IMG/VR virus record: IMGVR_UViG_3300009034_000169
Coordinates: 1-29,503 of that record
DNA length: 29,503 nucleotides
Direction: 5' to 3' (one strand)
DNA from: a virus
Under the pieces are notes generated by a model. That model had not been told where the DNA came from, made no database searches, and worked only from the letters and a program-made list of their open reading frames with translations. The first letter of the stretch is position 1, and every line of letters begins with the position of its first letter. This document shows, one piece after another, positions 1-29,456 of this stretch. The position numbers and the translations under genes were made by a program.

Positions 1-665
1 GTAACATAAGCTTGACATCGTAATGTCTGATTCCCAGGACTATACCAACGCTTTTTGTTTTTCCCTTCATGATTAATATATTCTATTGGCGTTTCAAGTT
101 TTTCTTTTCTCTTATGACATGGAGTATGATAACCGAAATAACGCCATAAGCTTGATGCATGCCTAGCTTTATGAATATCAATATAAGTCAAACAAGCAGT
201 GATAAATATTTCTCCGACTCCATTAACTGATAACATAGATGATATAATAGGAATATTTTTATTTTCCTTAACCCAAATTTTTATTTGTTTTTCTTTAGCT
301 TTTTCTTTGTCTAATATTTCTTTCAAAATATTATCAAGGAAAGCCATATCGATTTCATCAAGCGTATCGGTATGTCGCTTCGATGCCAAGATCTGATTAT
401 TTACCTTTAATCTTGTTTTCTGAATTTGTTTATAACCATCAAATAATGATTTCAATTGATCTAGATTTTCTTCTCTGTTTTTAAAAGTATCGTGTTCTTT
501 CATATGGCATGTAGCACAAATAAGATCATAATTTTTTTGATTATAAATACCTCCATCCATACGTAATGTTTTTCTATGAGTATCGTATTTACTCATTTCT
601 TTTGGTAATGATTTCCCGCACTTAATACATTGTTTAGATTTGGGTCGCTTTAATGCTTCTTTCAT
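1..665 (-). CDS. HNH-like zinc module fused to IS110/IS116-type C-terminal domain (partial)
   Basis: The gene reads leftward from an ATG at 665 and is still open at base 1, giving 221 codons; its 3' end is outside the window. GGAGG lies 6 nt before the ATG (671-676 on the plus strand). The N-terminus holds CIKCGK, then a DTHRK stretch and CATCHMKEH, so two CxxC pairs plus D/H, N and H residues arranged like an HNH/zinc endonuclease. After a charged helical stretch comes LSVNGVGEIFITACLTYID, SSLWRYFGYHTP and SPGNQTLR. This order matches the helix-hairpin-helix Transposase_20 domain of IS110/IS116/IS902 transposases (GIGxxTA, F..A..LAAYLGL, GN..LR). No RuvC-like DEDD domain precedes it, and the Ser-Gly usual after the GL.P motif is not visible (TPCHKRK instead). 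It could be a mobile endonuclease or a DNA-binding relic of an IS110 enzyme. Domain calls rest on motif recognition only. Confidence 0.72.
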   Translation of the reverse strand, partial: MKEALKRPKSKQCIKCGKSLPKEMSKYDTHRKTLRMDGGIYNQKNYDLICATCHMKEHDTFKNREENLDQLKSLFDGYKQIQKTRLKVNNQILASKRHTDTLDEIDMAFLDNILKEILDKEKAKEKQIKIWVKENKNIPIISSMLSVNGVGEIFITACLTYIDIHKARHASSLWRYFGYHTPCHKRKEKLETPIEYINHEGKNKKRWYSPGNQTLRCQAYV

Positions 666-2167: not shown

Positions 2168-2593
2168 ATGGCTGCAAAAACTTTACCGGGAAGCGAAAAT
2201 ACACTTGATGATTTTCGCAACTGGATTATAAAAGAATCTGTCGGGAATGAAAGCGGATCACATATCCTTAATCCTGCCGCAGATCAAGCATATCAGCAAT
2301 ATGATATGTGTGTAGCAGAACCTTGGTGCGGAATTGTAGATAATGGAGTTGCTCTTGGAGCAGAATTCACTATGCATGTAACTGAAGGTATTCAAATCGA
2401 TACCGATGAAATAGAAACAGGAGCGCTTTTTACTGCATTCGGCCAGGATGTATGGTATAATCCGATAACGAAGGTATATTCTGATACTGAAAGCGGAGAT
2501 GTGTATCTGGTTGGATACGTTATCATCCCCACGAATGCCGATGGTGTAATGCGTTTTGAGAAACGCAGATATGTTGTTCAAGGCACGACTTAA
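2168..2593 (+). CDS. Capsid decoration/cement protein, DUF2190-like
   Basis: The 141-residue protein starts 12 nt after the protease stop, with AAAGGAGG before its ATG, and is followed closely by the major capsid gene. In phages of this layout the gene between scaffold and capsid encodes a small trimeric cement or decoration protein on the outside of the head. The segment GQDVWYNPITKVYSD, then GDVYLVGYVI, resembles the beta-rich core of DUF2190-type proteins, in which a glycine-led strand is followed by a variable loop and a hydrophobic strand. The N-terminal 45 residues are less structured and could contact the capsid lattice. Family match is by pattern only; context supports a head role. 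Confidence 0.55.
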   Translation: MAAKTLPGSENTLDDFRNWIIKESVGNESGSHILNPAADQAYQQYDMCVAEPWCGIVDNGVALGAEFTMHVTEGIQIDTDEIETGALFTAFGQDVWYNPITKVYSDTESGDVYLVGYVIIPTNADGVMRFEKRRYVVQGTT

Positions 2594-2609: not shown

Positions 2610-3869
2610 ATGAAAGAAATTAAAGATTTAGTTTTAACTAAAAATAAATTAATCAAACAGCGAGTTGCAAGCGGAGAAGGTATCCCCTCGGCTATGTTCT
2701 ATGGAAAAATGGATTCTCAAAATGTCGGAAAGCCTGATTATGTTGTAAAATCAAACAGAGATCGTCTTGAATCTGTTGTAATTCCTGCTGGTGAAAAATG
2801 GATTAATAGTGAAGGTTATAATAATCTGTGGAGCGAAATTGAAGATTTGATGAAACGGACACGAAATCAATTTGAACGAAAAGTCAATCTTAATCAATTT
2901 CCTGATGATTATTATGATCTGATTAATAGAATTAGAATCGATATAACCAGACGCAGAATAGAGCAGATGGATTTTACAGGATTAATGACAGTCGAGTTGA
3001 ATAATCCTAATTTTTCAAAGGCTGTTGACTTATTGGAATTTATTCCGTTTGCTGGAGCATTTGAAGAAATTAAAGGAACTGGAGATAATGTTCCGATGTT
3101 GGAACAGAAGACAGGGGCAAAAGGCGCTGTTCATATATATCTATATGGATTGGGGCATGCAAGAACGCTTGAAGATGAATTATATAATCTTGATATTTTT
3201 TCACTTGAAAAAGTGAATGCTGCCGTTGCTAGAGGTCATACAGCATTAAGAAATGATCTTTGCCTTGGAACGCTCGTTGCTCTGACTAATGCTGGAGCTT
3301 GGAATGCTTTTCAAACTGTGGCAGCAACTACTACTGGATCACTCGATCAGAGATATTATGAAACAATTAGAAATGCTATTCGACAATTGATGGGATTAAG
3401 AGATCCGCAGACTGGACAGGAAATTGATACAAGCAGAATGGTTCTTGTAGTAGGTAGCAATGTCATAGCTTGGGATTTGAATAGAGTATTAAGCGGGCGT
3501 GTATTACGTGGCGAAAATCAAATTATAAATCTTGAAGCGTTGCCAATTGATGATGTTTGGATTTATAAAGGAGATACGATTAATGTAGGGCCTAGACCTC
3601 ATGCTTACCCTGGGGTCCCTGACGGAACAGCTTACTTACTTGTACCTGGGCCAGCAGGATCTCCAATTTGGACGTTGAATAAGCGTCAACTTACGATGGA
3701 AATTGGACGTGGTGATGTTCTCCAACTTGCACGTGAACGAAGGGCTTGGTATTTTGGACAAGGTGAATATCAAGAAGAATTCCTAGGATCAAGTGGTGAT
3801 CTTACATTAGATACTTCGACTGGTTATGGATATGTTGTAACGATTGATTTACCAACTGACGAAACTTAG
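2610..3869 (+). CDS. Major capsid protein
   Basis: The 419-residue protein follows protease/scaffold and decoration genes, has a strong AAAAAGGAGG binding site upstream, and ends the transcription unit at an intrinsic terminator. Size and position fit an HK97-fold major capsid protein. The N-terminal 100 residues are charged and helical, like the N-arm and E-loop. The region around 150-330 has alternating alpha/beta character, with a VARGHTALRNDLCLGTL helix typical of the spine helix, followed by a TSRMVLVVGSNVIAWDL strand-helix. The last 90 residues contain GRGDVLQLARERRAWYFGQG, comparable to the P-domain stretch in which capsid proteins report substrate-like loops. No close family can be named by eye, so the call rests mainly on gene order. 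Confidence 0.78.
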   Translation: MKEIKDLVLTKNKLIKQRVASGEGIPSAMFYGKMDSQNVGKPDYVVKSNRDRLESVVIPAGEKWINSEGYNNLWSEIEDLMKRTRNQFERKVNLNQFPDDYYDLINRIRIDITRRRIEQMDFTGLMTVELNNPNFSKAVDLLEFIPFAGAFEEIKGTGDNVPMLEQKTGAKGAVHIYLYGLGHARTLEDELYNLDIFSLEKVNAAVARGHTALRNDLCLGTLVALTNAGAWNAFQTVAATTTGSLDQRYYETIRNAIRQLMGLRDPQTGQEIDTSRMVLVVGSNVIAWDLNRVLSGRVLRGENQIINLEALPIDDVWIYKGDTINVGPRPHAYPGVPDGTAYLLVPGPAGSPIWTLNKRQLTMEIGRGDVLQLARERRAWYFGQGEYQEEFLGSSGDLTLDTSTGYGYVVTIDLPTDET

Positions 3870-3891
3870 AAAAAATAATAATTAAATATTG

Positions 3892-3922
3892 AAAGGGGAC
3901 TTGAAAAAGTCTCCTTTTTTTT
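3892..3922 (+). terminator. Intrinsic terminator after the capsid gene
   Basis: An 11-bp stem (3892-3902 with 3907-3917, one G-U pair) closes on a GAAA tetraloop and runs into eight T residues (3915-3922). It lies 22 nt after the capsid stop codon. It would end or attenuate head-gene transcription before the glycosyltransferase cassette. The loop and the top of the 5' arm are also the -35 box of the next promoter. Confidence 0.85.
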
Positions 3923-3929
3923 GTATAAC
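3901..3929 (+). promoter_or_regulatory. Promoter embedded in terminator; leaderless start of GT cassette
   Basis: TTGAAA (3901-3906) is separated by exactly 17 nt from TATAAC (3924-3929), and ATG follows 7 nt later at 3937. The start site would fall on or next to the ATG, so the first glycosyltransferase mRNA should have almost no leader; no SD is present. The -35 box overlaps the terminator hairpin loop, and the spacer is the 3' arm plus the T-tract. Confidence 0.7.
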
Positions 3930-3936
3930 TAAGTAA

Positions 3937-4656
3937 ATGCAAATAGTTACTGTTCAATTCAATTATCCGAAAAGATCAAATTACAAAACAATGCTTGATG
4001 TATTCCGATATTCCTGCCAATTATATATGCCAAAAGTAAAATTCAATGAAATATGCATTCCACCACCACCTCCAAATCCTAGACGAAAAGAACTTAACTT
4101 CATGTATAATGGTGTGAAACTTAAACTTTGGTTAGATTTCCTAGAAAAAACCAATGATAATATTATTTTTGCCGATTGCGATATGCTGGCCGTGAAATCG
4201 GCTGAACATGCTTTTGATATTCCTTTCGATGTGGCCTTCACTGCGAGAACGCATACAACACGAATTCCTATGAATGGCGGAATTATGATGGTACGTCCAA
4301 CCGAAGCTGCAAGGAGATTTTTCCGAGAAATGCTATTGATTAATAATAAAATGTATAAAGATATTAAATTTCATAATCAATGGCGCAAAATATATGCCGG
4401 CATGAATCAAGCAGCTTTTGGATATACATATAAAAAAGGAAAACATGGAGCAAAAGTACATAGATATATTACAAGAGAATGGAATGCGGTTGATTGTGAT
4501 TGGACAAATATTCAAAAAAATACAGTTTTCATTCATTATAAATCCAAATTGCGTAAAATGGTATTAGGTGAAAGACGACATAAACCAGAATATAAATATG
4601 TAATTGATCTTTGGAATAATATGAGACAAAATATGCTAAAAAGAGGTAAGGCATGA
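3937..4656 (+). CDS. GT-A fold glycosyltransferase 1 (GT8-like)
   Basis: The 239-residue protein is a probable nucleotide-sugar-dependent glycosyltransferase. DNIIFADCDML (residues 74-84) supplies the metal-binding DxD (D80, D82) at the end of a hydrophobic strand. It is followed by MNGGIMMVRP, YAGMNQAAFG and, near the C-terminus, a FIHYKSKLR stretch, in the order seen in GT8-like enzymes (NGG substrate loop, then a C-terminal His-x-x-x-K). There are no membrane segments, so it is cytoplasmic. It is paralogous to the gene at 6605 (shared VQF, IPPP, NDNI.F.DCDM, NGG, YAGMNQAA). A run of five prolines at 42-46 is unusual. It opens a five-gene cassette with its own promoter. Acceptor and donor sugar are unknown. 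Confidence 0.82.
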   Translation: MQIVTVQFNYPKRSNYKTMLDVFRYSCQLYMPKVKFNEICIPPPPPNPRRKELNFMYNGVKLKLWLDFLEKTNDNIIFADCDMLAVKSAEHAFDIPFDVAFTARTHTTRIPMNGGIMMVRPTEAARRFFREMLLINNKMYKDIKFHNQWRKIYAGMNQAAFGYTYKKGKHGAKVHRYITREWNAVDCDWTNIQKNTVFIHYKSKLRKMVLGERRHKPEYKYVIDLWNNMRQNMLKRGKA

Positions 4657-5336
4657 AATTAATTACAATTTATTTTGAAAGGAAAAAAAAGTTTAAAAAA
4701 TTTTTAAAAGTTTTTCAAAATTCTGCTAAAAAACATATGCCGAATGTAAAAACAGAAATAGTTAAAATTTCTATGCCTCCCGATGTGGATCACAAAAGAG
4801 ACACTGCTTATGCTTTTCTAGCTGCTGCTGAATATGCCTTGCAATCAAGAGAACCCTTAGCTATTGCCGATATAGATTTGATGTTCACAAAATCTATAAT
4901 GGATATATTCAAAAGACGTTTTGATCTTGCAATCACAGTTAGAGATAGAAAAACGCTTCGATATAATACAGGATTATGGTTTTATAAGCCTTCTCAAAAA
5001 GCAAGACTTTTTGTAAAAGATTGGATTAAATATACTAAAAGATTAATGAAAAGTTTTTGCAAAAATGAGGAATTCGTACATACGCATGGAGGAATAGACC
5101 AAGCCTCATTACATATGACTATAAAAAGAAATACGGCTGCAAAAATATTAGAATTGCCTTGTCTGGAATGGAATGCAACTCAATCAGAATGGAAACATAT
5201 TGATGAAGAAACAAATACTAGAGTAATTCATGTTAAATCGAAATTAAGTCTTGCTGCTTTTGGACGGATAGAAATCCCTGAAAGCATGGAATATATGAAA
5301 CCAATCATCAAAATATGGAAAGGATATTTAAAATGA
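4653..5336 (+). CDS. GT-A fold glycosyltransferase 2
   Basis: The 227-residue product starts in an ATGA overlap with the previous gene, indicating translational coupling. LAIADIDLMF (residues 69-78) gives the DxD (D73, D75). YNTGLWFYKPS replaces the NGG loop, GGIDQASLH corresponds to YAGMNQAAF in the paralogues, and VIHVKSKLSLAAFG matches the C-terminal His-Lys motif. It is therefore a divergent member of the same family as its neighbours, probably with a different acceptor or sugar. It lacks signal and membrane segments and has a very basic first 30 residues. The next gene overlaps its stop codon by four bases. Confidence 0.77.
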   Translation: MKLITIYFERKKKFKKFLKVFQNSAKKHMPNVKTEIVKISMPPDVDHKRDTAYAFLAAAEYALQSREPLAIADIDLMFTKSIMDIFKRRFDLAITVRDRKTLRYNTGLWFYKPSQKARLFVKDWIKYTKRLMKSFCKNEEFVHTHGGIDQASLHMTIKRNTAAKILELPCLEWNATQSEWKHIDEETNTRVIHVKSKLSLAAFGRIEIPESMEYMKPIIKIWKGYLK

Positions 5337-5926
5337 TAATACCTGAAAGTTGTATGCCCTGGATAAAACTTCAAAGACATGGCGCTAAATATTCTATAAA
5401 TAAAAAAGAATATATAACAGAAATGGAAAAAGAATTTAAATTGATATTGCCATTTTTACTAAAAAAATGTAATTCGATTTTGGATATCGGTTGTGGTGTA
5501 GCGGGTATAGATGTTTTACTTTCTAAGCATTATGATAATCCAAAATTATATTTGCTTGATACGGATTTTAAAAATGATGTTGTTTATGGATTTGGAAATA
5601 AAAAATCTTTTTATAATTCATTATCAGCTACAAAAAACATGATGGATTTTAATAATGTTTTAAATTATCATATACTTGATTTTAACCATGAATTAAAAAA
5701 TCTGGAAAATATTGATATAATAATTTCTACACTTTCTTGTGGTTATCATTATCCTGTTGATACATATCTTGAAAAAATAAATAAAATATTATCAAAAAAT
5801 GGAATATTAATTATTGATATCAGAGAGAATACAGATGGGATAAAAAAAATAGGAAAATATTTTCAATATATAAATATAATTAGTAATTATAATAAATCAG
5901 CAAGAATTTGCGCAAGGAGAATATAA
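5333..5926 (+). CDS. Class I SAM-dependent methyltransferase 1
   Basis: The start at 5333 is chosen because its ATG overlaps the previous stop as ATGA; an in-frame ATG at 5315 would overlap by 22 nt. The 197-residue protein carries ILDIGCGVAGIDVLL (residues 49-63), the classical motif I for S-adenosylmethionine, then LYLLDTD (72-78) as the acidic end of strand 2, and IDIIISTLSCGYHYP as motif IV. ILSKNGILIIDIREN resembles the strand before motif VI. It most resembles small-molecule or sugar methyltransferases rather than DNA methylases, as no DPPY or NPPY motif is present. Lying between glycosyltransferases, it may methylate a sugar or acceptor amino acid; that substrate is inference. Confidence 0.78.
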   Translation: MIIPESCMPWIKLQRHGAKYSINKKEYITEMEKEFKLILPFLLKKCNSILDIGCGVAGIDVLLSKHYDNPKLYLLDTDFKNDVVYGFGNKKSFYNSLSATKNMMDFNNVLNYHILDFNHELKNLENIDIIISTLSCGYHYPVDTYLEKINKILSKNGILIIDIRENTDGIKKIGKYFQYINIISNYNKSARICARRI

Positions 5927-5927
5927 A

Positions 5928-6605
5928 ATGAGACGTAGGAATCCGTACTTTTTGAAACCTAGACAAAAAATAAAAAGCACAAGACAAAAATTAAAAAAAA
6001 AGGATAAAAAAATAGTCAGGATCCAAATCAAACCAAAAAAATATAAAAAAAGGCAAAGATGGGATGCTATACTCGATAGATTGCCAAAAGATGTCCATCT
6101 CGTAGGCGCTGAAATCGGAGTTCTTAATGGCAATACTGCACATAGAATATTATTAGCAAGACCGTTATTGAAACATATAATGATTGATCCTTGGTGTGTT
6201 CCTGAAAAGGGCAGTTCTTACGATTCGGCAGGAAAAGCAGGAGATACAAACGCAAGCAAACCACAGAAAGAACATGAAAAAGCATATCAAAAAACTAAAG
6301 GGCTTGTAGCTTTTGCTGGTAATCGTGCAGTAATTATGCGTATGATGTCTCATGAAGCAGTGCCGAAAATAGAAGATAATTCTCTTGATTTCGCTTTCAT
6401 TGATGGAGATCATAGTTATGAGGGAACTAGTCTTGACATAAAATTATGGTTACCGAAAGTAAAAAAAGGCGGTTGGATCGGAGGTCATGATTATAAACAT
6501 GAATCAAGACCAGACTTGCATGGAGTTGACAAAGCTGTTGAAGAAGCATTTGTAAAAAAAGATATTGAGACAGACGATAACCATACGTGGTTTGTGAAAT
6601 TATAA
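5928..6605 (+). CDS. Methyltransferase 2 (Methyltransf_24 type) with basic N-terminal tail
   Basis: The 225-residue protein has an extremely Lys/Arg-rich first 45 residues, then a Rossmann methyltransferase of the family seen with sugar O-methyltransferases. AEIGVLNGNTA (61-71) is the SAM-binding motif I, IMIDPW follows as strand 2, and DFAFIDGDHSYEGTSLD near 154-170 with GGWIGGHDY near 181-189 is the typical FIDGDHxYxxVxxD...GGxxxxHD signature that binds metal and substrate. It starts one base after the previous stop, preceded by AAGGAGAAT. The basic tail could bind nucleic acid, ribosomes or an acidic partner. This family often methylates sugars in O-antigen and antibiotic pathways, so a glycan role in this cassette is plausible. 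Confidence 0.8.
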   Translation: MRRRNPYFLKPRQKIKSTRQKLKKKDKKIVRIQIKPKKYKKRQRWDAILDRLPKDVHLVGAEIGVLNGNTAHRILLARPLLKHIMIDPWCVPEKGSSYDSAGKAGDTNASKPQKEHEKAYQKTKGLVAFAGNRAVIMRMMSHEAVPKIEDNSLDFAFIDGDHSYEGTSLDIKLWLPKVKKGGWIGGHDYKHESRPDLHGVDKAVEEAFVKKDIETDDNHTWFVKL

Positions 6606-7468
6606 TGAAAATAGTATCTGTACAATTTGATTACATGGGATTCAAAAAATATGATATATTATCCAGAGTTCTAGAATATAGTATACAAAAAAATTGTCCA
6701 GATGCAGATTTGGAAATGCTTAGAATCCCTCCTCCGAAGGGATATCCAAGCAAGCGATGTTTTGCTGCTAATACCCTAAAAATGCAGAAATGGGTTGATA
6801 TAATGAATATCACAAATGATAATATTGTCTTTCTTGATTGTGATATGCTGGTTTTGCGTGATATTTCAGATATTTTTGAAGATGATTTTGACATTGGATT
6901 GACAATAAGAGGTACTGGTAGTATTCCATATAATGGCGGTGCAGTTTTTGTTCGTAATTCACAAAAAGCAAAAGATTATATGGAATTATGGAACGAAGTT
7001 AATATTCATCTATATAATAATCCAAAAGAACATAATTATTGGAGAAATAAAAAAGGATATGCTGGAATGAATCAAGCAGCTCTGGGATGCTTGATGGAAA
7101 CGAAAAAATATCAGGCAAATGTAAAAAAATATCCATGTGCTATTTGGAATCTTTGTAGAAATCATTGGAATAAGATTACAGATGAAAGCCGAATTTTGCA
7201 TATAAAAAGCGGATTAAGAAAGGCTGTATTTGCTAGAGCATCTTCTATTATAGTTGCAAAATATCAAAAAGCAATTTCAATATGGTTGCAATATGCAAAA
7301 GAAGCAGGGATTCATACCAATATGGAGGTTAAAAAATTTCTTGATACTCAAGAAAAAATAAAAGAAAAGGCAAAATCTAAATTGAAACGGAGAAGAACTT
7401 GGTTTGAAAAAGCACTTGGTAGAAAATATTCTGATATTGCAAAAATATCAAGAAAACGAAGGCGTTAA
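6605..7468 (+). CDS. GT-A fold glycosyltransferase 3 with basic C-terminal tail
   Basis: The start at 6605 forms a TAATG overlap with the preceding stop; the longer in-frame ATG at 6587 is less likely. The 287-residue product is a paralogue of the first glycosyltransferase: it shares IVSVQFDY, IPPP, NDNIVFLDCDML (DxD at D78 and D80), YNGGAVFVRN, YAGMNQAALG and ILHIKSGLRKAVF. It has an additional 70 residues at the C-terminus rich in Lys and Arg, ending in SRKRRR, which recalls the basic N-terminal tail of the neighbouring methyltransferase. Such tails suggest a shared docking partner or nucleic-acid contact. It closes the five-gene cassette; no hairpin terminator is visible after it. Confidence 0.82.
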   Translation: MKIVSVQFDYMGFKKYDILSRVLEYSIQKNCPDADLEMLRIPPPKGYPSKRCFAANTLKMQKWVDIMNITNDNIVFLDCDMLVLRDISDIFEDDFDIGLTIRGTGSIPYNGGAVFVRNSQKAKDYMELWNEVNIHLYNNPKEHNYWRNKKGYAGMNQAALGCLMETKKYQANVKKYPCAIWNLCRNHWNKITDESRILHIKSGLRKAVFARASSIIVAKYQKAISIWLQYAKEAGIHTNMEVKKFLDTQEKIKEKAKSKLKRRRTWFEKALGRKYSDIAKISRKRRR

Positions 7469-8401: not shown

Positions 8402-10207
8402 ATGAGTATAGAGATAGATTATCCGTTTGATAATCCTAATAATTATAATTATGATACAGATTTAATTGCCGTCCAATCAAGCAAGGCTTTATTGAAATTG
8501 ATTAATAATCCTCTGCAACAATTTACAGAAGATTATGCAAATGATACCGGCTTCACATATGATAGTAATGAAGCGGAATTTGTCGGGGGGAAAGTACAGC
8601 AAAAAAATAAAAGACCTACAAATGCAACTTTTTATGCTTCTTATACAAATAATATAGATGGATCATGGGGCGATGGTATTTTGACAGGCACAGCAGGCGG
8701 AGGGGCTTCTGTGGCTGGCGGAGCTTTGGATTTAAAATATTCTGATATTCGATATGTAGATTATGATGCCAATTTAAATGCTGACAGTCAGCAAACTGGA
8801 TGTATTAGATTACGTTTCCGACCTAATTATGCAGGATCTCCAGTAGGCGACACAATCGTAATGTTTGCAATTTGCAAATCAGTAGGACTTGGAAATAATA
8901 TGATTTTGCTACAACATACTGTTGCTGGACAAATCAATATTGGTATATTTGACTCGGCAGGAGCAGGAATAATTCAAGTAAATTTGGGTGCATGGGCTCC
9001 GGTATCAGGAACTATTTATGAATTCGAATTCAACTGGGATATAACTACAGGCGCTACTAGATTATTTTTGGATGGTAACCAATTTGGAGCAACACAAGTA
9101 AATACTGGAACAAGAGATTCAGATATAAATTTACTTGTAGTTGGTAGTAATCTTGATCATACAAAAATATCCAATTTTGAAATATTAGATTTTCTTATTT
9201 TTTCTACTGTTCAACATACAGCAAATTATACACCCGATTGGACAAATATATATGAATATGATTATTTAGAGTCAAAAGTAGATTTACCTTCATTTTCTTA
9301 TACTGGGAATGGTTCTATACAATCATTTGATAATTTTGTAACTATCGGAGCTAATGAACGATATATTATTAATAATCAATATTGGAATGGTTCAGTATGG
9401 GCTGTTTCAAATGGGACTTATGCACAAGCGTCAAATTCTGCTGATATTTTAGCGAATTTGGCAACTATTACAATATCAGGAACTATTAATATATCTATCG
9501 TTTTTGAAGATACTAATACTAATAGAGGTGAAGCAGATAATTTAATTTTCACTTATACAGGGCAAATTTATCCGACTTCAAATCCTATTATTTCTTTTTC
9601 TACTACTTTTCGTTGTGAAGGGATAGATGAATTCACGGAAACATCTACAAAAACAGGAAGCGATGAGATAAAATACAGAATAAGAATAGGTACGAATTAT
9701 GTTTATTGGAATGGAACTGCTTGGATAACTTCTGATGGTACATATGCTCAATCGACTACGGCAGCGGATATAAATACAAATAAAGCAACTCTTGTTACTT
9801 CTGCTTCCAATGTAGCAATAGGAGCTTATCTGCATTCTGGAGATGGAAGCACGACTCCGGAACTTGATAATGTTCAAATATTATTTGATTTTTCAGGCGA
9901 TGAAGCTGATGATATTGAAAAATGTATTATATGGGGGTATAGCCGAGATGCTCAAGGCAATGCATTGAATGAAGAAATATTTGTAGAGCTTGCGCCGGAT
10001 GTTGTAGAATATAAAAATAATATAACAATTGAAAGCGATCAAATTATTATAACTCCAAATTCAAGTGGATATTGGGAAGTTGAGCTTGCAGATAATGCAA
10101 ATATGAATGTAGGATCAAAATATATTTTTACAATTAATAATAAGACATATTATAGAATTATTCCAAATGAAATTTCAAAGGCTTTCAATGAATTAGAAGA
10201 GGCATAA
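8402..10207 (+). CDS. Virion adhesin with LamG/concanavalin-like domain and internal repeats
   Basis: The 601-residue protein starts right after the joining protein. Residues ~72-280 look like a concanavalin A/LamG jelly roll: ATFYASYTNNIDGSWGDG at the start, GCIRLRFRPNY, IYEFEFNWDITTGATRLFLDGNQFG and LLVVGSNLDHTKISNFEILDFLIF. Two copies of a second module follow (~300-388 and ~400-497), each with YWNGxxWxxSxGTYAQxxxxADIxxNxATL, then a beta-rich tail at 505-590 resembling an Ig-like or carboxypeptidase-regulatory-like fold. Such proteins bind carbohydrates or decorate capsids and necks. Its place between head-closure and tail-completion genes suggests a head or neck fibre rather than a tail-tip fibre. 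The target is unknown. Confidence 0.62.
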   Translation: MSIEIDYPFDNPNNYNYDTDLIAVQSSKALLKLINNPLQQFTEDYANDTGFTYDSNEAEFVGGKVQQKNKRPTNATFYASYTNNIDGSWGDGILTGTAGGGASVAGGALDLKYSDIRYVDYDANLNADSQQTGCIRLRFRPNYAGSPVGDTIVMFAICKSVGLGNNMILLQHTVAGQINIGIFDSAGAGIIQVNLGAWAPVSGTIYEFEFNWDITTGATRLFLDGNQFGATQVNTGTRDSDINLLVVGSNLDHTKISNFEILDFLIFSTVQHTANYTPDWTNIYEYDYLESKVDLPSFSYTGNGSIQSFDNFVTIGANERYIINNQYWNGSVWAVSNGTYAQASNSADILANLATITISGTINISIVFEDTNTNRGEADNLIFTYTGQIYPTSNPIISFSTTFRCEGIDEFTETSTKTGSDEIKYRIRIGTNYVYWNGTAWITSDGTYAQSTTAADINTNKATLVTSASNVAIGAYLHSGDGSTTPELDNVQILFDFSGDEADDIEKCIIWGYSRDAQGNALNEEIFVELAPDVVEYKNNITIESDQIIITPNSSGYWEVELADNANMNVGSKYIFTINNKTYYRIIPNEISKAFNELEEA

Positions 10208-11210: not shown

Positions 11211-11529
11211 TACTATTTATGATCGCAAAAAAGTTGCGACATATGCATTATGTCTTGAATATGCAGCATTAGCACTTAATTATTTTAGACAGGCTCAAAG
11301 TGTTAATAAATTCTGGATTAATCGTACAGGCCAGGCGAAAGATTTAATGTTCACGGATGCAAAAATGACTACAACTTATATAAGTTGGTTAATGGCTCAT
11401 GGCATAAAATATGGTGTATATTTAGAACTTGCAAATGATGGACAAAATGAAGCAATTCGACCTGTTATAATGCATTTTTTACCTCAGTTTAAAAAAGATT
11501 TATCAAAATTATGGGAGAAAGATTTATGA
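11170..11529 (+). CDS. Tail completion protein, HK97 gp10-like
   Basis: The 119-residue protein uses the ATG at 11170, with AAGAGG 11-12 nt upstream; a TTG at 11149 in the same frame is less likely. FWINRTGQAKDLMFTD, then a helix ending in LMAHGIKYGVYLELANDGQNEAI, is the pattern of HK97 gp10-type proteins, which carry W-x-N-x-T-G near the N-terminal third and G-x-x-Y-x-x-x-L-E near the middle. These proteins sit between neck and tail tube and allow head-tail joining. The next gene overlaps its stop as ATGA. Confidence 0.65.
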   Translation: MAVIGTPQVLKNINTIYDRKKVATYALCLEYAALALNYFRQAQSVNKFWINRTGQAKDLMFTDAKMTTTYISWLMAHGIKYGVYLELANDGQNEAIRPVIMHFLPQFKKDLSKLWEKDL

Positions 11530-12287
11530 GCAAAATCCTTATTATTGGTTATGGAATCGTTGGACAAAATATTCATAAAATATTCACGGATGCCGATATT
11601 TATGATCCTGATAAATGTGAAGGCGTATTGAAAAATATAACTTATGATTTTGCTTTTATCTGCGTTCCAACTCCAAAAAAAGAAAATGGAGAATGTGATT
11701 ATTCAATTGTAGAAGAAGTTATCAAAAAGCATAAAGTAAAAATATTCATAATTAAATCTACAATTCCACCTGGGACTACTGAACTTTTAGGAAGTAAATT
11801 TCTAAAAAAATGTGTATTCTCGCCAGAATATTACGGGGAAACCGTTCATGCTAATGATAATAATTATGAATTTGTGATTCTAGGCGGTAATAAAATCAAT
11901 ACCAGAAAGGTAGCTGAATTATATAAAAATTATTATACAGGAAGATTAAAAATATTTCAGACAGATACAAAAACAGCGGAATTATGTAAATATATGGAAA
12001 ATGCTTTTCTTGCAACTAAAGTTATTTTTTGTAATGAATTCTACAGAATTGCTGAACGATATGGAATTGATTATAATGAATTAAGAGAACTCTGGCTTGC
12101 TGATCCTCGAATTAATAGAAGTCATTCTTTTGTCTATGAAAAGCACCCCTATTATGAATCGAAATGTCTTGACAAAGATTTGCCTGCAATACTGGAAGCA
12201 TCCAAGCAAAAAAATTATGAACCTAAATTATTAAAATATGTTATCGAAATAAATAAAAAATTCAAAAAGGATTTTCATGATAACTAG
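11526..12287 (+). CDS. Short UDP-glucose/GDP-mannose dehydrogenase family protein
   Basis: The start at 11526 overlaps the previous stop as ATGA. The 253-residue protein follows the family order closely: Rossmann GYGIVG (8-13) for NAD, FICVPTP (44-50), IIKSTIPPGTT (75-85), SPEYYGE (99-105), and TAELCKYMENAFLATKVIFCNEFYRIAERYG (split as TAELCKYMENAF and VIFCNEFYRIAERYG) in the helical domain. ESKCLDKDLPA (211-221) places C214 where the catalytic Cys lies, although the usual GGxCxPKD is degraded. Complete enzymes have ~390-470 residues; the C-terminal UDP-binding domain is absent. It may oxidise a nucleotide sugar to a uronic acid or be a repurposed fragment. It is out of place between tail-completion and tail-terminator genes, and may feed the glycosyltransferase cassette. 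Confidence 0.85.
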   Translation: MSKILIIGYGIVGQNIHKIFTDADIYDPDKCEGVLKNITYDFAFICVPTPKKENGECDYSIVEEVIKKHKVKIFIIKSTIPPGTTELLGSKFLKKCVFSPEYYGETVHANDNNYEFVILGGNKINTRKVAELYKNYYTGRLKIFQTDTKTAELCKYMENAFLATKVIFCNEFYRIAERYGIDYNELRELWLADPRINRSHSFVYEKHPYYESKCLDKDLPAILEASKQKNYEPKLLKYVIEINKKFKKDFHDN

Positions 12288-13589: not shown

Positions 13590-14262
13590 GACTCTTGATA
13601 AGATAGAAGTTGCGAAATATCCGATTTTATATGTTCCTTTTCATGGGACTTATATTTGGGTAAAACTTAAAGAATTAACTCTTAATCAAATTAATAATTG
13701 CGGTGATATCTCTCTCATCGAAACATTTCAGGATAAAATTCGAGCAAAAAAATTAAGACGCAGAGATATCATAAAATATTCAGAAACACAATATAAAATT
13801 GTTAAAGAATCGCTTGTTTCACCCACATATGAAGAAATACTCGAAAAAATTGGACAGGATAAATCTATAGAAAATAAAAAAATAATATTAACAGAATTAA
13901 AAGAAAAAATTAAAAGTATAAAACCCGGACTTAAACGGTCTGCATTAGAAGAAGAAATTGATACTTACAAAATTTGGATTAATTTAATTCTTCCAGATGA
14001 TTTTATCGGAACTGTTGTTTCATATGCATTGGGAATTCATAAAAGTGATATAAAAGGAATTAGTGAAAAAATATTACTTGATGCTGCAATAATAGCAGAA
14101 AAATATAAAAAACGACCGTCTGAAATAGTCTGTGAAGATGGAAATTTTTCTACATTCAATAAAATGGATATTGATAAACGAGCTATGTATATATTATATG
14201 AACATAGAGAAAATAATAAACAAAGAAAACCAGGGAAGGAGAGATTAAAAATTGGCCGTTGA
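13570..14262 (+). CDS. Tail assembly chaperone, putative
   Basis: The 230-residue product sits between the tube and the tape measure genes, where tail assembly chaperones (lambda gpG-like) are encoded. I chose the ATG at 13570, which overlaps the tube gene by 20 nt; in-frame ATGs at 13522 (with GGGGG upstream) and 13462 would overlap by 68 and 128 nt. The protein is helical and lysine-rich, with YVPFHGTYIWVKLKELTLNQI near the N-terminus, typical of phage chaperones that begin with a short beta-hairpin, and a C-terminal acidic-helical half. No slippery heptamer or downstream frame extension for a gpGT-type product was found. Its stop lies inside the first codons of the downstream endonuclease gene. 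Confidence 0.6.
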   Translation: MTSITSKTLDKIEVAKYPILYVPFHGTYIWVKLKELTLNQINNCGDISLIETFQDKIRAKKLRRRDIIKYSETQYKIVKESLVSPTYEEILEKIGQDKSIENKKIILTELKEKIKSIKPGLKRSALEEEIDTYKIWINLILPDDFIGTVVSYALGIHKSDIKGISEKILLDAAIIAEKYKKRPSEIVCEDGNFSTFNKMDIDKRAMYILYEHRENNKQRKPGKERLKIGR

Positions 14263-14974
14263 TGCTGATCTGGAAAGAAAAGAAAAATTTAGAGAATATT
14301 ATGCTAAATATCGTGCGATAAATCGTGAGAAGATTAGGAAAAGAAATCTAAAATGGTATAATGATAATCGAGAAAAATGTCTTGAAAGTGGAAGAAAATA
14401 TCGTCTTAATAACCTTGAAAAAAATAGAAAAAGATGCAGGGAATATGCAAGAAATCATAAAGAAAAAAATAAAGCATATAAAAAAATATGGGAAGTTAAT
14501 AATAGAGATAAAGTTAATGCAACAGCAAGAAAATCAAAAAGAAAAAATCATGAAAAAGTAATTGCATGTATGAAAAAATGGAGAAGTGAACATAAAAAAG
14601 AAATATCAGATTATTCTAATAAATATATGAAAAGACGTAGAGAGCAATATCCTTCAATAAAAATACTTGGTAATTTAAGAACTAAAATGAGAATTGCTCT
14701 AAAAAGTAACGGCACAGAAAAAAAAGAGCGAACGGTAACTTTAATAGATTGCACTCCTAATGAATTAAAAATATATCTTGAATTACTTTTCAAGCCAGGA
14801 ATGTCATGGGATAATTACGGTAGAAAAGGTTGGCATATAGATCATATTATTCCTTGTGCTATATTTGATTTGACGGATAAAAAACAGAGAAAAAAATGTT
14901 TTCATTATACAAATTTGCAACCGTTATGGGCACAAGAAAACTTGAAAAAAGGTAAACAATATTATGGCTGTTGA
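14252..14974 (+). CDS. HNH homing endonuclease inserted before the tape measure gene
   Basis: The 240-residue protein begins with TTG at 14252, 8 nt after AAGGAGAG, giving fM-A-V-D-A-D. Residues ~10-130 are highly basic with recurring W/Y-x-x-N-R-E-K units (YRAINREKIRKRN, WYNDNREKCLESG, YRLNNLEKNRK), as in the N-terminal regions of many phage HNH proteins. The catalytic part is WHIDHIIPCAIFDLTD and CFHYTNLQPLWAQEN near residues 193-234, a clear HNH-type His-Asp-His, N and H/E arrangement. It overlaps the chaperone end by 11 nt and the tape measure start by 11 nt. Its first five codons specify the same MAVDA as the tape measure, a sign of insertion into that gene's start. Confidence 0.88.
   Translation: MAVDADLERKEKFREYYAKYRAINREKIRKRNLKWYNDNREKCLESGRKYRLNNLEKNRKRCREYARNHKEKNKAYKKIWEVNNRDKVNATARKSKRKNHEKVIACMKKWRSEHKKEISDYSNKYMKRRREQYPSIKILGNLRTKMRIALKSNGTEKKERTVTLIDCTPNELKIYLELLFKPGMSWDNYGRKGWHIDHIIPCAIFDLTDKKQRKKCFHYTNLQPLWAQENLKKGKQYYGC
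14253..14265 (+). repeat. Left copy of 13-bp imperfect direct repeat flanking the HNH gene
   Basis: TGGCCGTTGATGC matches TGGCTGTTGACGC at 14965-14977 in 11 of 13 positions; both differences are at synonymous third positions of the MAVDA frame. Each copy contains the stop TGA of the upstream gene and the first codons of the downstream gene. Confidence 0.8.
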
Positions 14975-24048: not shown

Positions 24049-24253
24049 TTCCGCAATTAGGACAAAATATAGGTTGTATTGGATTTATAAATTCTTTTCC
24101 AGAATAATTTCCAAAAATATCTTTTTCTTGATATCTAATATAAAAACTTATATATTCTTTTCCAGTTGTTAGATTTTTCATAGTTTTTAATCTTTTTGTT
24201 TTGTTTTCTTTCTGCATTCTCTCATTTATTTCATTTATACAATTACAACTCAT
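24032..24253 (-). CDS. Small zinc-binding phage protein (CxC...CxxC)
   Basis: The 73-residue protein is last in the leftward cluster and starts in an ATGA overlap with the radical SAM gene. It opens MSCNCINEINERM and ends IFCPNCGIKYL: one CxC and one CxxC pair, probably one zinc site joining both ends of a short beta domain (NLTTGKEYISFYIRYQEK). I know this 'CNC...N..TG...FCPxCGxKY' pattern from unassigned phage early genes. Function is unknown. It overlaps the late operon by 17 nt tail to tail; no intrinsic terminator is visible between the converging units. Confidence 0.65.
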   Translation of the reverse strand: MSCNCINEINERMQKENKTKRLKTMKNLTTGKEYISFYIRYQEKDIFGNYSGKEFINPIQPIFCPNCGIKYLS

Positions 24254-25122
24254 TTATATTCTTTCCATTTCACAGTCTTGAAAATTGCTTTATGATTAAC
24301 CCATCTACAAAATTGTTTTTGTTTTTTTGTTATTTTTATATTATCAAAATCCATATAAGGTTGTGCAAAAAAATCTAATTTTAAATATCTTAATTTATTT
24401 ATTCGATATAAAGCATCTTCAATCTCTTTTACTAAAATATATATAAAATAATTTTTAGGAGTTGTATTATATCTTCTTAATAATTCAACAGCTTTTATCA
24501 CTGAATCAATTTGACTTTTTTTATCACAAGCCATTCTAACAGGTTTTAACCATTTGACTTTAGATAATAATTTAGCAATATCTTCTATAATTAATCTCGC
24601 ATCAAGCCCTTGATTAAAGTCAACTTTAATTCCTAATTTTATTATTTTTTCTATTTGTTGCAAACCCCATTCATGAGATAATACATTATTATCAAGTAAA
24701 ATTGCTGATTTTTTATCTTCAATAAATTCTTTTATATCTTGATATTTTTGAATATATCCTTCTTTTTTATATACTAAACAAAAACTACATTTCCTGATAC
24801 AACCTCTTGTCAAAAATCCATAAGCATGTTGACAACCATATAAATTATAATCTGGTTGTATATATTCAATATTTTTATCTAATTTTATATTATAATTTTT
24901 ATATCCACTTCCACCTTGAATAATTTTATCAGATTGTATAATAGTTTTATTTTCTTTTGTCCAAGTAAAAACTTTTGATTTATATACAATATCATATTGA
25001 AATAAATTATTCATAAACTCTACATTATCCCCTTGTTTTTTATGATAAGTAGATAATTTCATTAATGCTAAATTAGGGAAATTATGCCCATCAACATCAT
25101 ACAACCCTATATTAATCATCAT
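24250..25122 (-). CDS. Radical SAM protein with cobalamin-domain-like N-terminus
   Basis: The 290-residue protein carries GCIRKCSFC (107-115), the CxxxCxxC that binds a 4Fe-4S cluster in radical SAM enzymes (C108, C112, C115). It is followed by an aromatic-rich LVYKKEG and, later, VDFNQGLDARLI near 170-182, typical of the beta strands of the partial TIM barrel. The first 45 residues (IGLYDVDGHNFPNLALMKLS) resemble the beginning of the B12-binding domain in MiaB/B12-radical SAM groups, but the domain is too short to be complete. Similar proteins are known in phages; their substrate is not known to me. It is encoded with DUF3310 and small membrane genes. Confidence 0.85.
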   Translation of the reverse strand: MMINIGLYDVDGHNFPNLALMKLSTYHKKQGDNVEFMNNLFQYDIVYKSKVFTWTKENKTIIQSDKIIQGGSGYKNYNIKLDKNIEYIQPDYNLYGCQHAYGFLTRGCIRKCSFCLVYKKEGYIQKYQDIKEFIEDKKSAILLDNNVLSHEWGLQQIEKIIKLGIKVDFNQGLDARLIIEDIAKLLSKVKWLKPVRMACDKKSQIDSVIKAVELLRRYNTTPKNYFIYILVKEIEDALYRINKLRYLKLDFFAQPYMDFDNIKITKKQKQFCRWVNHKAIFKTVKWKEYK

Positions 25123-26043: not shown

Positions 26044-26247
26044 TTATCCCCAAATAGATTTTTTCGTTTTTATATTATCATAAATAATAGCACATTCTAC
26101 AATCAATATTAGTGCTGTACAGACTAATTTAATTGCAAAAGCAAACCCTGCCCAAATAAGAATTAACCAGAATATTAAACCAATCCATCGGAATAACGTT
26201 AAAATAATTTTTTTTATTGCTTTTTCTTTTATTATTTTTGATTGCAT
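26044..26247 (-). CDS. 67-residue membrane protein
   Basis: The protein overlaps the end of the nuclease fusion gene by 16 nt, so it is probably translated from the same mRNA. A basic start (MQSKIIKEKAIKK) precedes a hydrophobic stretch of ~45 residues (IILTLFRWIGLIFWLILIWA, GFAFAIKLVCTALILIVECA), long enough for two membrane helices joined by a tight turn. It ends with NIKTKKSIWG. Function unknown; a tether for the DNA-processing enzyme or an early inhibitor are possibilities only. Confidence 0.58.
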   Translation of the reverse strand: MQSKIIKEKAIKKIILTLFRWIGLIFWLILIWAGFAFAIKLVCTALILIVECAIIYDNIKTKKSIWG

Positions 26248-29200
26248 ATCAATTCCTTCACATTAATATTATTTTGAATGTAATTATGCGTATCAGGTGC
26301 ATGTGATATTACAATCACTTGATTCGATTTACCATCAAAATATTTTTTTTGCATTTCGTAGTATTCTTGAATTCTGTGCGGTTGAATAGGAGCATCAGCT
26401 TCGTCAGAAATGATGGGACTATAATTTTTCTGCGTTCTTTCATTTCTTTTTCTAATAAGAGCTTTCACATACGCATCATTGAAAAAAGCTTTTTGACCAA
26501 CTGAATATTTCAGGAATGATCGTTCTTCGCCGATTTCAGAATCGTATATTTTTATGTCAAAAATATCTTTCAGCCCTTTTTTGCTTACATCCTGAGTAAT
26601 AGTTCTAAAAGTAAATCTGCCAGTTTCATATTCTGATATCAACCTATTAGCCTCAGCATCAATCGAATCAGTGATAAGACTTAATTCTAATGCAGGAATT
26701 TTATCAGACTGTAACATAGATGCAATATATTTCCAATCAATAAGATCAAGATTAAATAATTTAAGAGATTGCCTTTTATTTTTTATTTGATCTTTTATTT
26801 TTTTAGCCTTTTCAATTGATTCCTGTTTGTTTTTTATTTGCGTTTCAAGTATAGAAACCGCCTGTAATAACTCATTCCTATGATGACTCAAAGCTATAAT
26901 ATTTTTATTTATTTCTATCAATTTGGATTCTATTGTATTATCTATATTATATATTTGTGTTTTTAATATTTTCTGTTCAAATTTTAATTCAGTTATATTA
27001 GTTTCAATTTCTGCAATCAATTTATCAGATGAATTAATTTCATTAAGAATATTTTGTAATTCAACACGCTTAGAATCAGTAAGAATTTTTGTTAAATTAA
27101 ATTTTTCAGGCATCTTTGGTTCGATAAGATTTTCAATTATACATTTTCTTTTTTTTAATTTTGCTGGTATGGTCGCAAGTTCGCTTTGCAATTTATCAAT
27201 TTGAATTTTATTTTCTGGATCAATATATCCGCATTGCGGACATATTTTTTCAAGGATTCTAATTTTATCTGCAATGACCATGCTTCTCGTATCAAGCTTT
27301 CTGATTTCATTAGTAAATTTTGTATTCTCAATTCTATATTCTGATAATAATCTTTCATATTTACGTTGCTCCTTTATTTGTTTTTTCTCCAATTTTTGCT
27401 GTTCCGCATCAACAGCTAATTTAGATTCTATTTCTTTTTTTCTTTTCATTTGTAATTTTATTTTTTCTATACGTTCATTTTTATTATTAATATTTTCAAT
27501 TATTTCAAGAAATATTTTTGTATCATTATTTTTTCGATTTTTTGCAATATCATTTTTTATTTTTTCTTCTTGCAACTTGTTTCTAATAATTTCAGATTTA
27601 GAAAATTGATTTTTCAAATTTTGCTGTTCATTATTTTTTTTATTAAGTTCAAATAGCAAATTTTCGATTTCCATTTCAATTGGTTTTATATTAATATCAA
27701 ATTGTTCAGCACCATTTAACCAATTTTCTGTATTAGTTATTTCTTGATTTATTTCTTTGACTTTATCCAAGGCATATTTTTTTTCGCTATCTCTATCTAC
27801 TCCAGCGATTGATTGTACCAGATCCCGAATATCTGTCATATTTGCCATCATAAGTCCGCTCGTACCATGGCGTGATTGTAATGGCTGAACGTAGAATGAT
27901 GTAAGCATATAATCTTGAAATGATCCATAAAGTTCCTCGCATTTATTATGCATTTCATCAAATGCTCCTTTTTCTAATACAGGGAATCCACCGACTATTA
28001 AGGAACATATTACTTTAGGATTTTTGGTATGTGCTCCTTGGATTTGAATATTATGTATATGTTCAATTTTATTGATAACAACCCATTTTTTTATATAAGA
28101 AACAGGCTGATCAAAAAAATCCTTTATTGCACTTGAACGTCCTGAATTTGTATCTTTGCCTATTATACAAGGATAAGGATGACAAAATGCTACTGTCGAT
28201 GATTTCCCAGAACCATTGTCTCCCATAAGAGAATTCAGACCTGTGGGTGATTCTCCTAAATTCCATTTCAATGTTTTGCTACCAAATAATGTGCATCCTG
28301 CTATCTCGATACCCATTAATTTAAAATTTATAGGTTTCAAAGATAATTCTGGAATATATTCTGTAATAGTTTTTACCTTTTTGCAAACGTCAGAGGAGAC
28401 AGTCGGATCAATAAGTTTGAATAAATCCGTCAAGCAAGTTATTTTTGCTGCCTGTTCCTCAGTAATACGTTGCGTTTTTATTCTTTTTTCATCATAAGTT
28501 ATCCTAGACCAAGGATGTCCTGCAGGATATTTATCATTGGGATTATTTGTTACTAGCCAATAAGCGATTTCTGGATTATAAAAATCTAAAGATTTTGTTA
28601 TTTTTCTACGCTCAGGAGTTCCATAAGAAATAGAATCATTTAACACGATATTATCTGAATGATTTATCGTTATCAAATTCATTCCTGGAATAAAATCTAA
28701 ATAATTCCAAGGCCTGTCATCAATCCCGCAGTACCCAGCATATCCAGCACATATTTTTTCTGACTCCCATGGGATATGCCTATGGCCAAGAGAAAGCCTG
28801 TCAAGCCCTGCACGCTCCAATATTTCTGTATGGATTACTATATTAGAACATTTTGTAATTATGTCGTTTGAATTCTCTTGTAGACTGTCAGACACCTCTC
28901 CATGGAAAAGCATAATTGCAGGAATATCGTTATATTTCAATCGCATGGGTGCTACATATTCATCAATATATTTCTCGAATAGATCAACTGCTTTTTTATT
29001 AGCCTGTTCAGAAGTAAGCTTTGTTTTTGCTAGAATATTTTTTGTAGTGAGTTCAGATACACCGAAAATAATACAATCTGAATTTTCCTCAATAGATTGA
29101 TTTAATTTTTGTATATTCCCACAATCAAATATATTATTATACCCATACACATTATCAGGCCTCAATAATACCAACCCGATATCCTCAAGTGGTTTATACA

Positions 29201-29456
29201 TCTCCTCATTTTCATGGCCAGGCGTACCTACCACGGCACAGACTGGACAGATTTTTATAAGTTCTTTGATCTTTTCACGTAATTGATTATAGGCCTTGGT
29301 AAGATAGAAATTCTTGTTATGCATATCCCCAGGAAATGCTACAAAATCGACCTTTTCTTTTTTTGCTGTCTCGATAATTTTATCAAGACAATTTAACGTT
29401 GTATCAATCCAGCGTTCATCCGCATGAATATCACTTGCTTCAATATATTTTATCAT
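26232..29456 (-). CDS. Single-chain SbcD/Mre11 nuclease - SbcC/Rad50 ATPase fusion
   Basis: The 1074-residue protein starts at an ATG with GGAGG 6 nt upstream. Residues 1-~285 are a metallophosphoesterase: SDIH (8-11), PGDMHN (42-47), GTPGHE (77-82), FHGEVSD (184-190) and LGHRHIP (223-229), the five Mre11/SbcD motifs in order, although the third lacks the usual Asn of GNHD/E. Residues ~376-1074 are an SbcC/Rad50-type ATPase: Walker A GDNGSGKSS (412-420), a coiled coil (~560-735 and ~745-900) around a zinc hook CPQC (739-742), KYSVGQKAFFNDAYVKAL (983-1000) as ABC signature, Walker B IISDEAD (1015-1021) and SHAPD (1051-1055). It would process DNA ends in phage replication or recombination, as T4 gp47/gp46 do as two chains. 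Its size is close to gp47 plus gp46 with longer coils. It lies in a leftward early-type unit. Confidence 0.93.
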   Translation of the reverse strand: MIKYIEASDIHADERWIDTTLNCLDKIIETAKKEKVDFVAFPGDMHNKNFYLTKAYNQLREKIKELIKICPVCAVVGTPGHENEEMYKPLEDIGLVLLRPDNVYGYNNIFDCGNIQKLNQSIEENSDCIIFGVSELTTKNILAKTKLTSEQANKKAVDLFEKYIDEYVAPMRLKYNDIPAIMLFHGEVSDSLQENSNDIITKCSNIVIHTEILERAGLDRLSLGHRHIPWESEKICAGYAGYCGIDDRPWNYLDFIPGMNLITINHSDNIVLNDSISYGTPERRKITKSLDFYNPEIAYWLVTNNPNDKYPAGHPWSRITYDEKRIKTQRITEEQAAKITCLTDLFKLIDPTVSSDVCKKVKTITEYIPELSLKPINFKLMGIEIAGCTLFGSKTLKWNLGESPTGLNSLMGDNGSGKSSTVAFCHPYPCIIGKDTNSGRSSAIKDFFDQPVSYIKKWVVINKIEHIHNIQIQGAHTKNPKVICSLIVGGFPVLEKGAFDEMHNKCEELYGSFQDYMLTSFYVQPLQSRHGTSGLMMANMTDIRDLVQSIAGVDRDSEKKYALDKVKEINQEITNTENWLNGAEQFDINIKPIEMEIENLLFELNKKNNEQQNLKNQFSKSEIIRNKLQEEKIKNDIAKNRKNNDTKIFLEIIENINNKNERIEKIKLQMKRKKEIESKLAVDAEQQKLEKKQIKEQRKYERLLSEYRIENTKFTNEIRKLDTRSMVIADKIRILEKICPQCGYIDPENKIQIDKLQSELATIPAKLKKRKCIIENLIEPKMPEKFNLTKILTDSKRVELQNILNEINSSDKLIAEIETNITELKFEQKILKTQIYNIDNTIESKLIEINKNIIALSHHRNELLQAVSILETQIKNKQESIEKAKKIKDQIKNKRQSLKLFNLDLIDWKYIASMLQSDKIPALELSLITDSIDAEANRLISEYETGRFTFRTITQDVSKKGLKDIFDIKIYDSEIGEERSFLKYSVGQKAFFNDAYVKALIRKRNERTQKNYSPIISDEADAPIQPHRIQEYYEMQKKYFDGKSNQVIVISHAPDTHNYIQNNINVKELICNQK

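Follow-up and report, generated by a model that had tools for sequence, protein, structure and literature searches.

The IMG/VR virus record IMGVR_UViG_3300009034_000169, analysed here over its 29,503 bases (the window; 32% G+C), carries at positions 3937-7468 a cassette of five genes for three glycosyltransferases (GT1-GT3) and two S-adenosylmethionine (SAM) methyltransferases (MT1 and MT2). Comparison with related phages suggests that this cassette glycosylates the phage's own head proteins, a reading we consider probable, if some way from certain. The head proteins are favoured because the cassette always lies in the late module, its enzymes are apparently soluble, capsid and cement proteins show acidic-serine/threonine (Ser/Thr) ends, and the mycobacteriophage Che8 offers a parallel. 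A preliminary description of this DNA had proposed that the cassette could build and methylate a glycan on capsid, tail or host surface, or else modify another macromolecule. The glycan and its methylation are upheld by enzyme family, motifs, structure and tailoring genes; among the acceptors, the comparison points to the head proteins, and DNA is disfavoured.

The proposed pathway would be cytoplasmic, expressed late and directed at the head proteins. Three GT8-like glycosyltransferases would use nucleotide sugars to start and then extend a short chain, one donor, probably a uridine diphosphate (UDP)-uronate, being supplied by the phage's short UDP-glucose dehydrogenase, and MT1 and MT2 would O-methylate the chain with SAM. 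Relatives would add sulphate by means of a sulphotransferase supplied by a phage adenosine 5'-phosphosulphate (APS) kinase, or phospho or phosphono groups by means of LicD paired with a phosphoenolpyruvate (PEP) mutase. The chain would likely be attached to the free Ser/Thr at the C-terminus of the capsid and cement proteins. We infer enzyme activity, donor sugars, step order and acceptor, and the benefit, whether virion shielding or adhesion, is a guess.

Gene layout and enzymes of the cassette

The structural module of the window runs in the order protease-like gene, cement protein, capsid, cassette, connectors, tail genes and tape measure. The placement of the cassette (GT1, GT2, MT1, MT2, GT3) between the major capsid gene and connector-like genes was confirmed, the capsid match being weak (PF25209, phrog_3116) and the connector-like genes lying beyond. 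The features concerned are given below; L-numbered names denote IMG/VR viral contigs compared with the window.

2168-2593 (+): cement/decoration protein, PF09956-like (3e-4, under the cut-off), candidate acceptor, ending ...VVQGTT
2610-3869 (+): major capsid protein, candidate acceptor from the C-terminal motif test, ending ...LPTDET (DET codons 3858-3866)
3891-3918 (+): intrinsic terminator between the capsid gene and the cassette
3901-3929 (+): candidate cassette promoter, TTGAAA-N17-TATAAC, overlapping the terminator
3937-4656 (+): GT1, GT8/PF03407-like GT-A glycosyltransferase, 239 amino acids; DxD, N.G, G.NQ and H.K conserved; orthologues in L002, L003 and L009
4653-5336 (+): GT2, paralogous glycosyltransferase, 227 amino acids; orthologues in L003 and L009
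5333-5926 (+): MT1, class I SAM methyltransferase, 197 amino acids
5928-6605 (+): MT2, Methyltransf_24 (TylF-like) methyltransferase with a basic N-terminal tail
6605-7468 (+): GT3, paralogous glycosyltransferase, 287 amino acids, with a basic helical C-terminal tail
11511-12287 (+): short UDP-glucose dehydrogenase (PF00984, 3e-20; catalytic C219, K160 and D223 invariant in 12 sequences)

The five genes had been described as a tightly coupled operon, which is correct because the open reading frames overlap by 4 (GT1 and GT2), 4 and 1 bases and the one remaining gap is a single base. The start of GT3 is most likely ATG 6605 rather than GTG 6587.

The three glycosyltransferases are paralogues, as first described: identity over the alignment is 36% between GT3 and GT1 and 27% between GT3 and GT2. 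Against the PF03407 cut-off of 22 bits, GT2 scores above (23.0) and GT1 (20.8) and GT3 (19.9) slightly below, and the family matches 43 of 57 viral relatives at E<=0.01. Residues D78, D80, D96, N110, G112, G154, Q157, N182 and H199 are invariant in these 57 sequences and K201 nearly so, meaning that the DxD metal/nucleotide motif (D78, D80) and the later H.K motif (H199, K201) are both kept. Structure prediction agreed with the GT-A identity. The AlphaFold2 model of GT3 (pLDDT 90.8) has a GT-A fold and, in structure comparison, its best matches are glycogenin (Z 16.5) and the PBCV-1 capsid glycosyltransferase (Z 16.4, root mean square deviation 3.0 over 191 residues); it also resembles Skp1 galactosyltransferase and LgtC, with Z 15-16.5 across glycogenin, the Skp1 enzyme and LgtC. 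GT1-GT3 are placed as GT8-like, probably retaining enzymes. No homologues of GT3 were found in isolate phages by tblastn, and none of the capsid protein.

The assignment of two SAM methyltransferases also held. MT2 passes PF13578 (Methyltransf_24) at 59.9 bits against a cut-off of 26.3 (5e-16) and carries a FIDGDHSYEG motif, in which D159 is invariant and H162 nearly invariant among aligned relatives. MT1 matches Methyltransf_23/31 weakly, has an intact LDIGCG motif, and was aligned with six relatives that are 37-53% identical. In sequence-profile comparison with solved structures, MT2 has its best match, a distant one, in PDB 6g7d (1.3e-5), titled 'Methyltransferase domain protein', which we take to be MeT1, a mycobacterial sugar O-methyltransferase. 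MeT1 O-methylates mannose oligosaccharides as an oligomannoside O-methyltransferase, in a report that does not name the 6g7d entry (PMC9883506). No membrane or hydrophobic segments were found in GT1-GT3, MT1 or MT2, and all five enzymes are apparently soluble.

The UDP-glucose dehydrogenase lies outside the cassette as originally delimited and does not have the C-terminal UDP-binding domain of cellular enzymes. Such genes adjoin the glycosyltransferase and MT2 genes in many relatives, and in Microbacterium phage Jayden a glycosyltransferase gene has as its neighbour an annotated UDP-glucose dehydrogenase of comparable length (786 bases). The gene in the window is probably the donor-sugar gene of the cassette pathway.

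The terminator reported ahead of the cassette is well marked (-15.6 kcal/mol, equalled by none of the shuffles; z = -5.2), and a stem-loop with a T-run occupies the same position in L002, L008, L009, L012, L064 and L081. The private promoter that had been proposed is plausible because L002 and L009 have, by eye, the same layout as the window, with TTGAAA in the terminator loop and a -10-like hexamer 17-18 bases on, past the T-run; terminator and promoter may thus overlap. However, promoter-like sites occur in the region at chance frequency (65 seen against 66.6 expected from shuffles). An Rfam search gave no match. At L008:2810-2890, downstream of the capsid gene and ahead of the cassette, there is a tRNA-like 3' half (GTGAGTTCGAATCTCACCCGAACA) that ARAGORN does not call as a tRNA; the idea of a tRNA as the cassette's insertion site was rejected, no tRNA having been found.

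Position and gene content among relatives

Relatives were gathered by searching IMG/VR with the capsid protein, the glycosyltransferase and MT2. A version of the cassette is present in about 25 distinct contigs from this phage group, whose capsid identity goes down to ~28%. Their structural gene order is fixed, and the slot taken by the cassette varies, always within the late structural module, among at least four positions:

after the capsid gene: window, L002, L008, L009/L010, L012, L028, L064, L072, L081
upstream of the portal gene: L066, L067, L068, L071, L077, L083, L087, L088, L107
between portal and MuF: L048, L074, L086, L092, L098
between MuF and protease: L075, L106

Scored on the capsid tree as five states (four slots and none), the slot changes 9 times, where the minimum possible is 4 and the shuffled mean 18.5; the cassette therefore moves, yet stays in the late module. 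Its insertion into the structural module, as first described, is correct as to place but only part of the story: the whole phage clade has long had the cassette, as a mobile feature that has changed slot repeatedly. Similarly, the order GT-GT-MT-MT-GT holds in the window and its nearest relatives but is not kept beyond them, L003 and L009 having a sulphotransferase between MT2 and GT3.

The tailoring genes of the relatives are exchangeable, and include a sulphotransferase with APS kinase, the short UDP-glucose dehydrogenase, a PEP mutase-cytidylyltransferase with LicD, and a TupA-like ATP-grasp protein (in L034 and L064). The putative sulphotransferase is assigned from a KSGTT loop of the kind that binds 3'-phosphoadenosine 5'-phosphosulphate (K10-S11-G12-T13, invariant in nine sequences) together with sub-threshold Pfam matches: PF13469 matches 8 of the 9 (best 8.1e-5), with the first member below the cut-off. 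No meaningful relative of it was found by sequence among solved structures. An APS kinase (2.9e-41) is encoded in phages that also carry the sulphotransferase, with genes at L003:8472-9326, L021:9151-10020 and L009:7412-7984; in L003 and L021 the kinase is preceded by an N-terminal nucleotidyltransferase-like domain. A second sulphotransferase in L048 (13650-14264), guessed from 'PRTGGT', was unsupported by Pfam and dropped. Within the structural module of L075, a PEP mutase-cytidylyltransferase fusion (3126-4415; PF13714-PF01467, EDKXXXXXNS motif) and a LicD gene (6848-7426) constitute apparent phage-encoded phosphonate or phosphocholine tailoring. Since sulphation, APS kinase, LicD and TupA belong to glycan chemistry, the product is read as a glycan rather than modified DNA.

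A glycosyltransferase adjoins MT2 also in L013, L020, L031, L057 and L060, contigs without a recognised capsid protein of this clade, and the pair may be a wider unit. Host links are confined to two weak links to metagenome-assembled genomes (Elusimicrobia and Treponema), neither of which has the cassette in the stretch available.

Candidate acceptors and alternative explanations

Among phages with the cassette, a terminal Ser/Thr is present in 20 of 21 cement proteins and 16 of 21 capsid proteins, against 16/193 summed over the other structural families except the connector con2, which is intermediate (12/18). An acidic residue followed by Ser/Thr closes 16/21 capsid, 14/23 cement and 7/18 con2 proteins, and 4/194 of the other structural proteins. 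Because the codons for these terminal residues differ between phages, the constraint lies on the protein. Even diverged proteins in the cement position have such ends (DELST in L028, EEAT in L064), and that of L064 matches the IEEAT of its own capsid protein. The comparison with phages lacking the cassette, suggested in the preliminary description, agreed: cement proteins of lineages without it end in Ser/Thr in 0/14 cases. In 11 cassette-free contigs, 9 of them of at least 30 kb, no glycosyltransferase of the cassette family, no family GT2 enzyme and no Methyltransf_24 was found, with controls working for both Pfam families.

Several points weigh against this interpretation. The C-terminal motif was defined once the data had been seen. 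With only about three changes on the tree for the cassette, and about as many for the cement C-terminus, the association of the two is not separable from ancestry. In most cassette-free lineages the cement protein is of a longer form. Phages without the cassette also have capsid proteins that are often Ser/Thr-ended (16/19, often LPT/LPS), though rarely after an acidic residue (2/13), and there are exceptions to the motif, among them L088 and the capsids of L071, L074, L075 and L106. The glycosyltransferases and MT2 are basic (charge +18 to +24), which would also suit nucleic acid. Neither a sulphotransferase nor an APS kinase was seen in the 29.5 kb of the window. That the glycan is attached to the terminal Ser/Thr of these two head proteins, capsid and cement, is put forward with slightly less than even confidence.

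The alternative that fares best, if still an unlikely one, is that the cassette remodels host surface polysaccharide late in infection, for superinfection exclusion or release. UDP-glucose dehydrogenase, LicD, TupA and sulphotransferases are characteristic of bacterial gene clusters for surface polysaccharide, and phosphonate tailoring of cell surfaces is known (PMC6697681). However, no clear membrane segment is present in the five enzymes, the dehydrogenase, or the sulphotransferase and APS kinase of L003, and no flippase or polymerase was recognised in the cassettes. The location of the cassette, always within the head module, and the C-terminal Ser/Thr pattern of head proteins also argue for the virion head over the host surface.

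It seems improbable that the cassette acts on proteins of the tail or of receptor binding, for instance the LamG-like protein (8402-10207), and so alters adsorption. The cassette adjoins those genes, and a glycosylated tail tube is described for mycobacteriophages (PMC12619734), but L003 and L009, both of which have the cassette, showed no relative of the LamG-like gene, and the major tail protein of cassette phages mostly ends in Val (Ser/Thr in 2/18).

Slightly less probable again is modification of the phage DNA, with glycosylated and methylated bases protecting against restriction. Phages do glycosylate DNA, the enzymes are basic as noted above, and MT2 matches a PHROG labelled 'DNA methyltransferase' (5.5e-23). 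That label, as found in cyanophage records, is annotation only, and the best solved match of MT2 is 6g7d. The preliminary description had considered that relatives might link these genes to DNA modification; a thymidylate-synthase-type hydroxymethylase was found in 0/12 relatives' records, with controls matched in 9 genomes, although the records may be fragments. A TET/JBP oxygenase was likewise seen in 0/12, in a search without a match in its controls, so that absence cannot be claimed. We know of no role in DNA modification for sulphation, APS kinase, LicD or TupA.

That these are chance cargo genes without joint function, as varying content and slot might suggest, is scarcely credible, given that deeply diverged relatives retain the gene set and its catalytic residues and that biochemical partners co-occur (sulphotransferase with APS kinase, LicD with cytidylyltransferase).

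Taking glycosylation of the virion head further, a whole clade of uncultured tailed phages might bear on its heads an acidic glycan that is sulphated, O-methylated or phosphonylated and joined to the terminal Ser/Thr of the capsid and cement proteins. A roaming cassette whose tailoring genes can be exchanged would make this glycan, and the viral genes for APS kinase, PEP mutase and UDP-glucose dehydrogenase, usually taken for metabolic helpers, would in fact serve to decorate the virion. We offer this broader proposal tentatively, as possible and somewhat doubtful in its entirety.

Elsewhere in the window, a 1074-residue protein (26232-29456, minus strand) has by eye an SbcD phosphoesterase-like start followed by SbcC, with phrog_77 covering the SbcC part alone, and looks like a single-chain SbcD-SbcC fusion. 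HNH-like endonuclease genes lie at 3-665 (minus) and 14252-14974 (plus); relatives of the latter occur in other places in L027 and close to the tape measure gene in L011, and such genes possibly drive gene shuffling. A strongly AT-rich gene at 24250-25122 (minus; G+C at third codon positions 0.10) has a CxxxCxxC-like radical SAM signature by eye.

Comparison with known systems

Virion glycosylation in tailed phages is known mainly from mycobacteriophages. The results of Freeman et al. (2023) on Che8 and cluster O are used here as quoted in other papers. Che8 is reported to be glycosylated on capsid and tail tube: glycans are reported on the Che8 major capsid protein (PMC11256854), mycobacteriophage capsid and tail tube subunits are reported to carry them at their C-termini (PMC12619734), and cluster O phages have three tandem glycosyltransferases beside an O-methyltransferase (PMC11600133). 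Che8 shares with the window the logic of a phage-encoded glycosyltransferase set with a Methyltransf_24/TylF O-methyltransferase. Its cassette comprises a family GT2 enzyme fused to a Methyltransf_24/TylF domain, a further GT2 and a GT25, whereas the enzymes here are GT8-like, and it lies at the right end of the genome rather than in the structural module. No sulphation or phosphonate genes are annotated in the Che8 stretches examined. Among 14 structural-module proteins of Che8, a C-terminal Ser occurs only in those of the capsid (...NKTGS) and the tail tube (...YSDGS), and the small subunit of the terminase has a C-terminal Thr; the tail tube protein here, in contrast, has no Ser/Thr end. 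A Ser-end rule thus fits the Che8 case studied by others, one phage being one data point.

A064R of the chlorovirus PBCV-1, which methylates the terminal rhamnose (PMC7826918), acts in the synthesis of the capsid N-glycan. It offers the same glycosyltransferase-glycosyltransferase-methyltransferase logic on a viral capsid, and the solved capsid glycosyltransferase is a top structural match to GT3, but the glycan is N-linked, the virus is algal, the activities reside in one fused protein and sequence identity is ~13%. Glycogenin and Skp1 galactosyltransferase share with GT3 the fold and the DxD region, and both act on protein-attached sugars; they are cellular enzymes at ~16% identity. Bacterial phosphonyl-tailoring systems, in which a Ppm-cytidylyltransferase fusion decorates cell surfaces (PMC6697681), resemble L075 in its PF13714-PF01467 fusion, EDKXXXXXNS motif and LicD, although in L075 the genes are in a phage structural module, and the fusion is not in the window. 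Serotype conversion of the gtr type differs in using a membrane flippase and a membrane glucosyltransferase, whereas no hydrophobic segment was found in the five enzymes here. Our search of the literature available to us returned no report of a glycosyltransferase/methyltransferase/sulphotransferase cassette in a phage structural module.

If the proposal is true, virion glycosylation would be known from a further, large lineage of uncultured phages, in which another enzyme family carries it out, and would come to include sulphation and phosphonate chemistry. The acidic-Ser/Thr C-terminus of shell proteins would be a sequence rule predicting acceptor sites, and some viral sulphur and sugar 'auxiliary metabolic genes' would be open to another reading. 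What would be new here is the family to which the glycosyltransferases belong, the option of adding sulphate or phosphonate, the mobility of the cassette and the rule for acceptors, with a mode of action like those of Che8 and PBCV-1 A064R.

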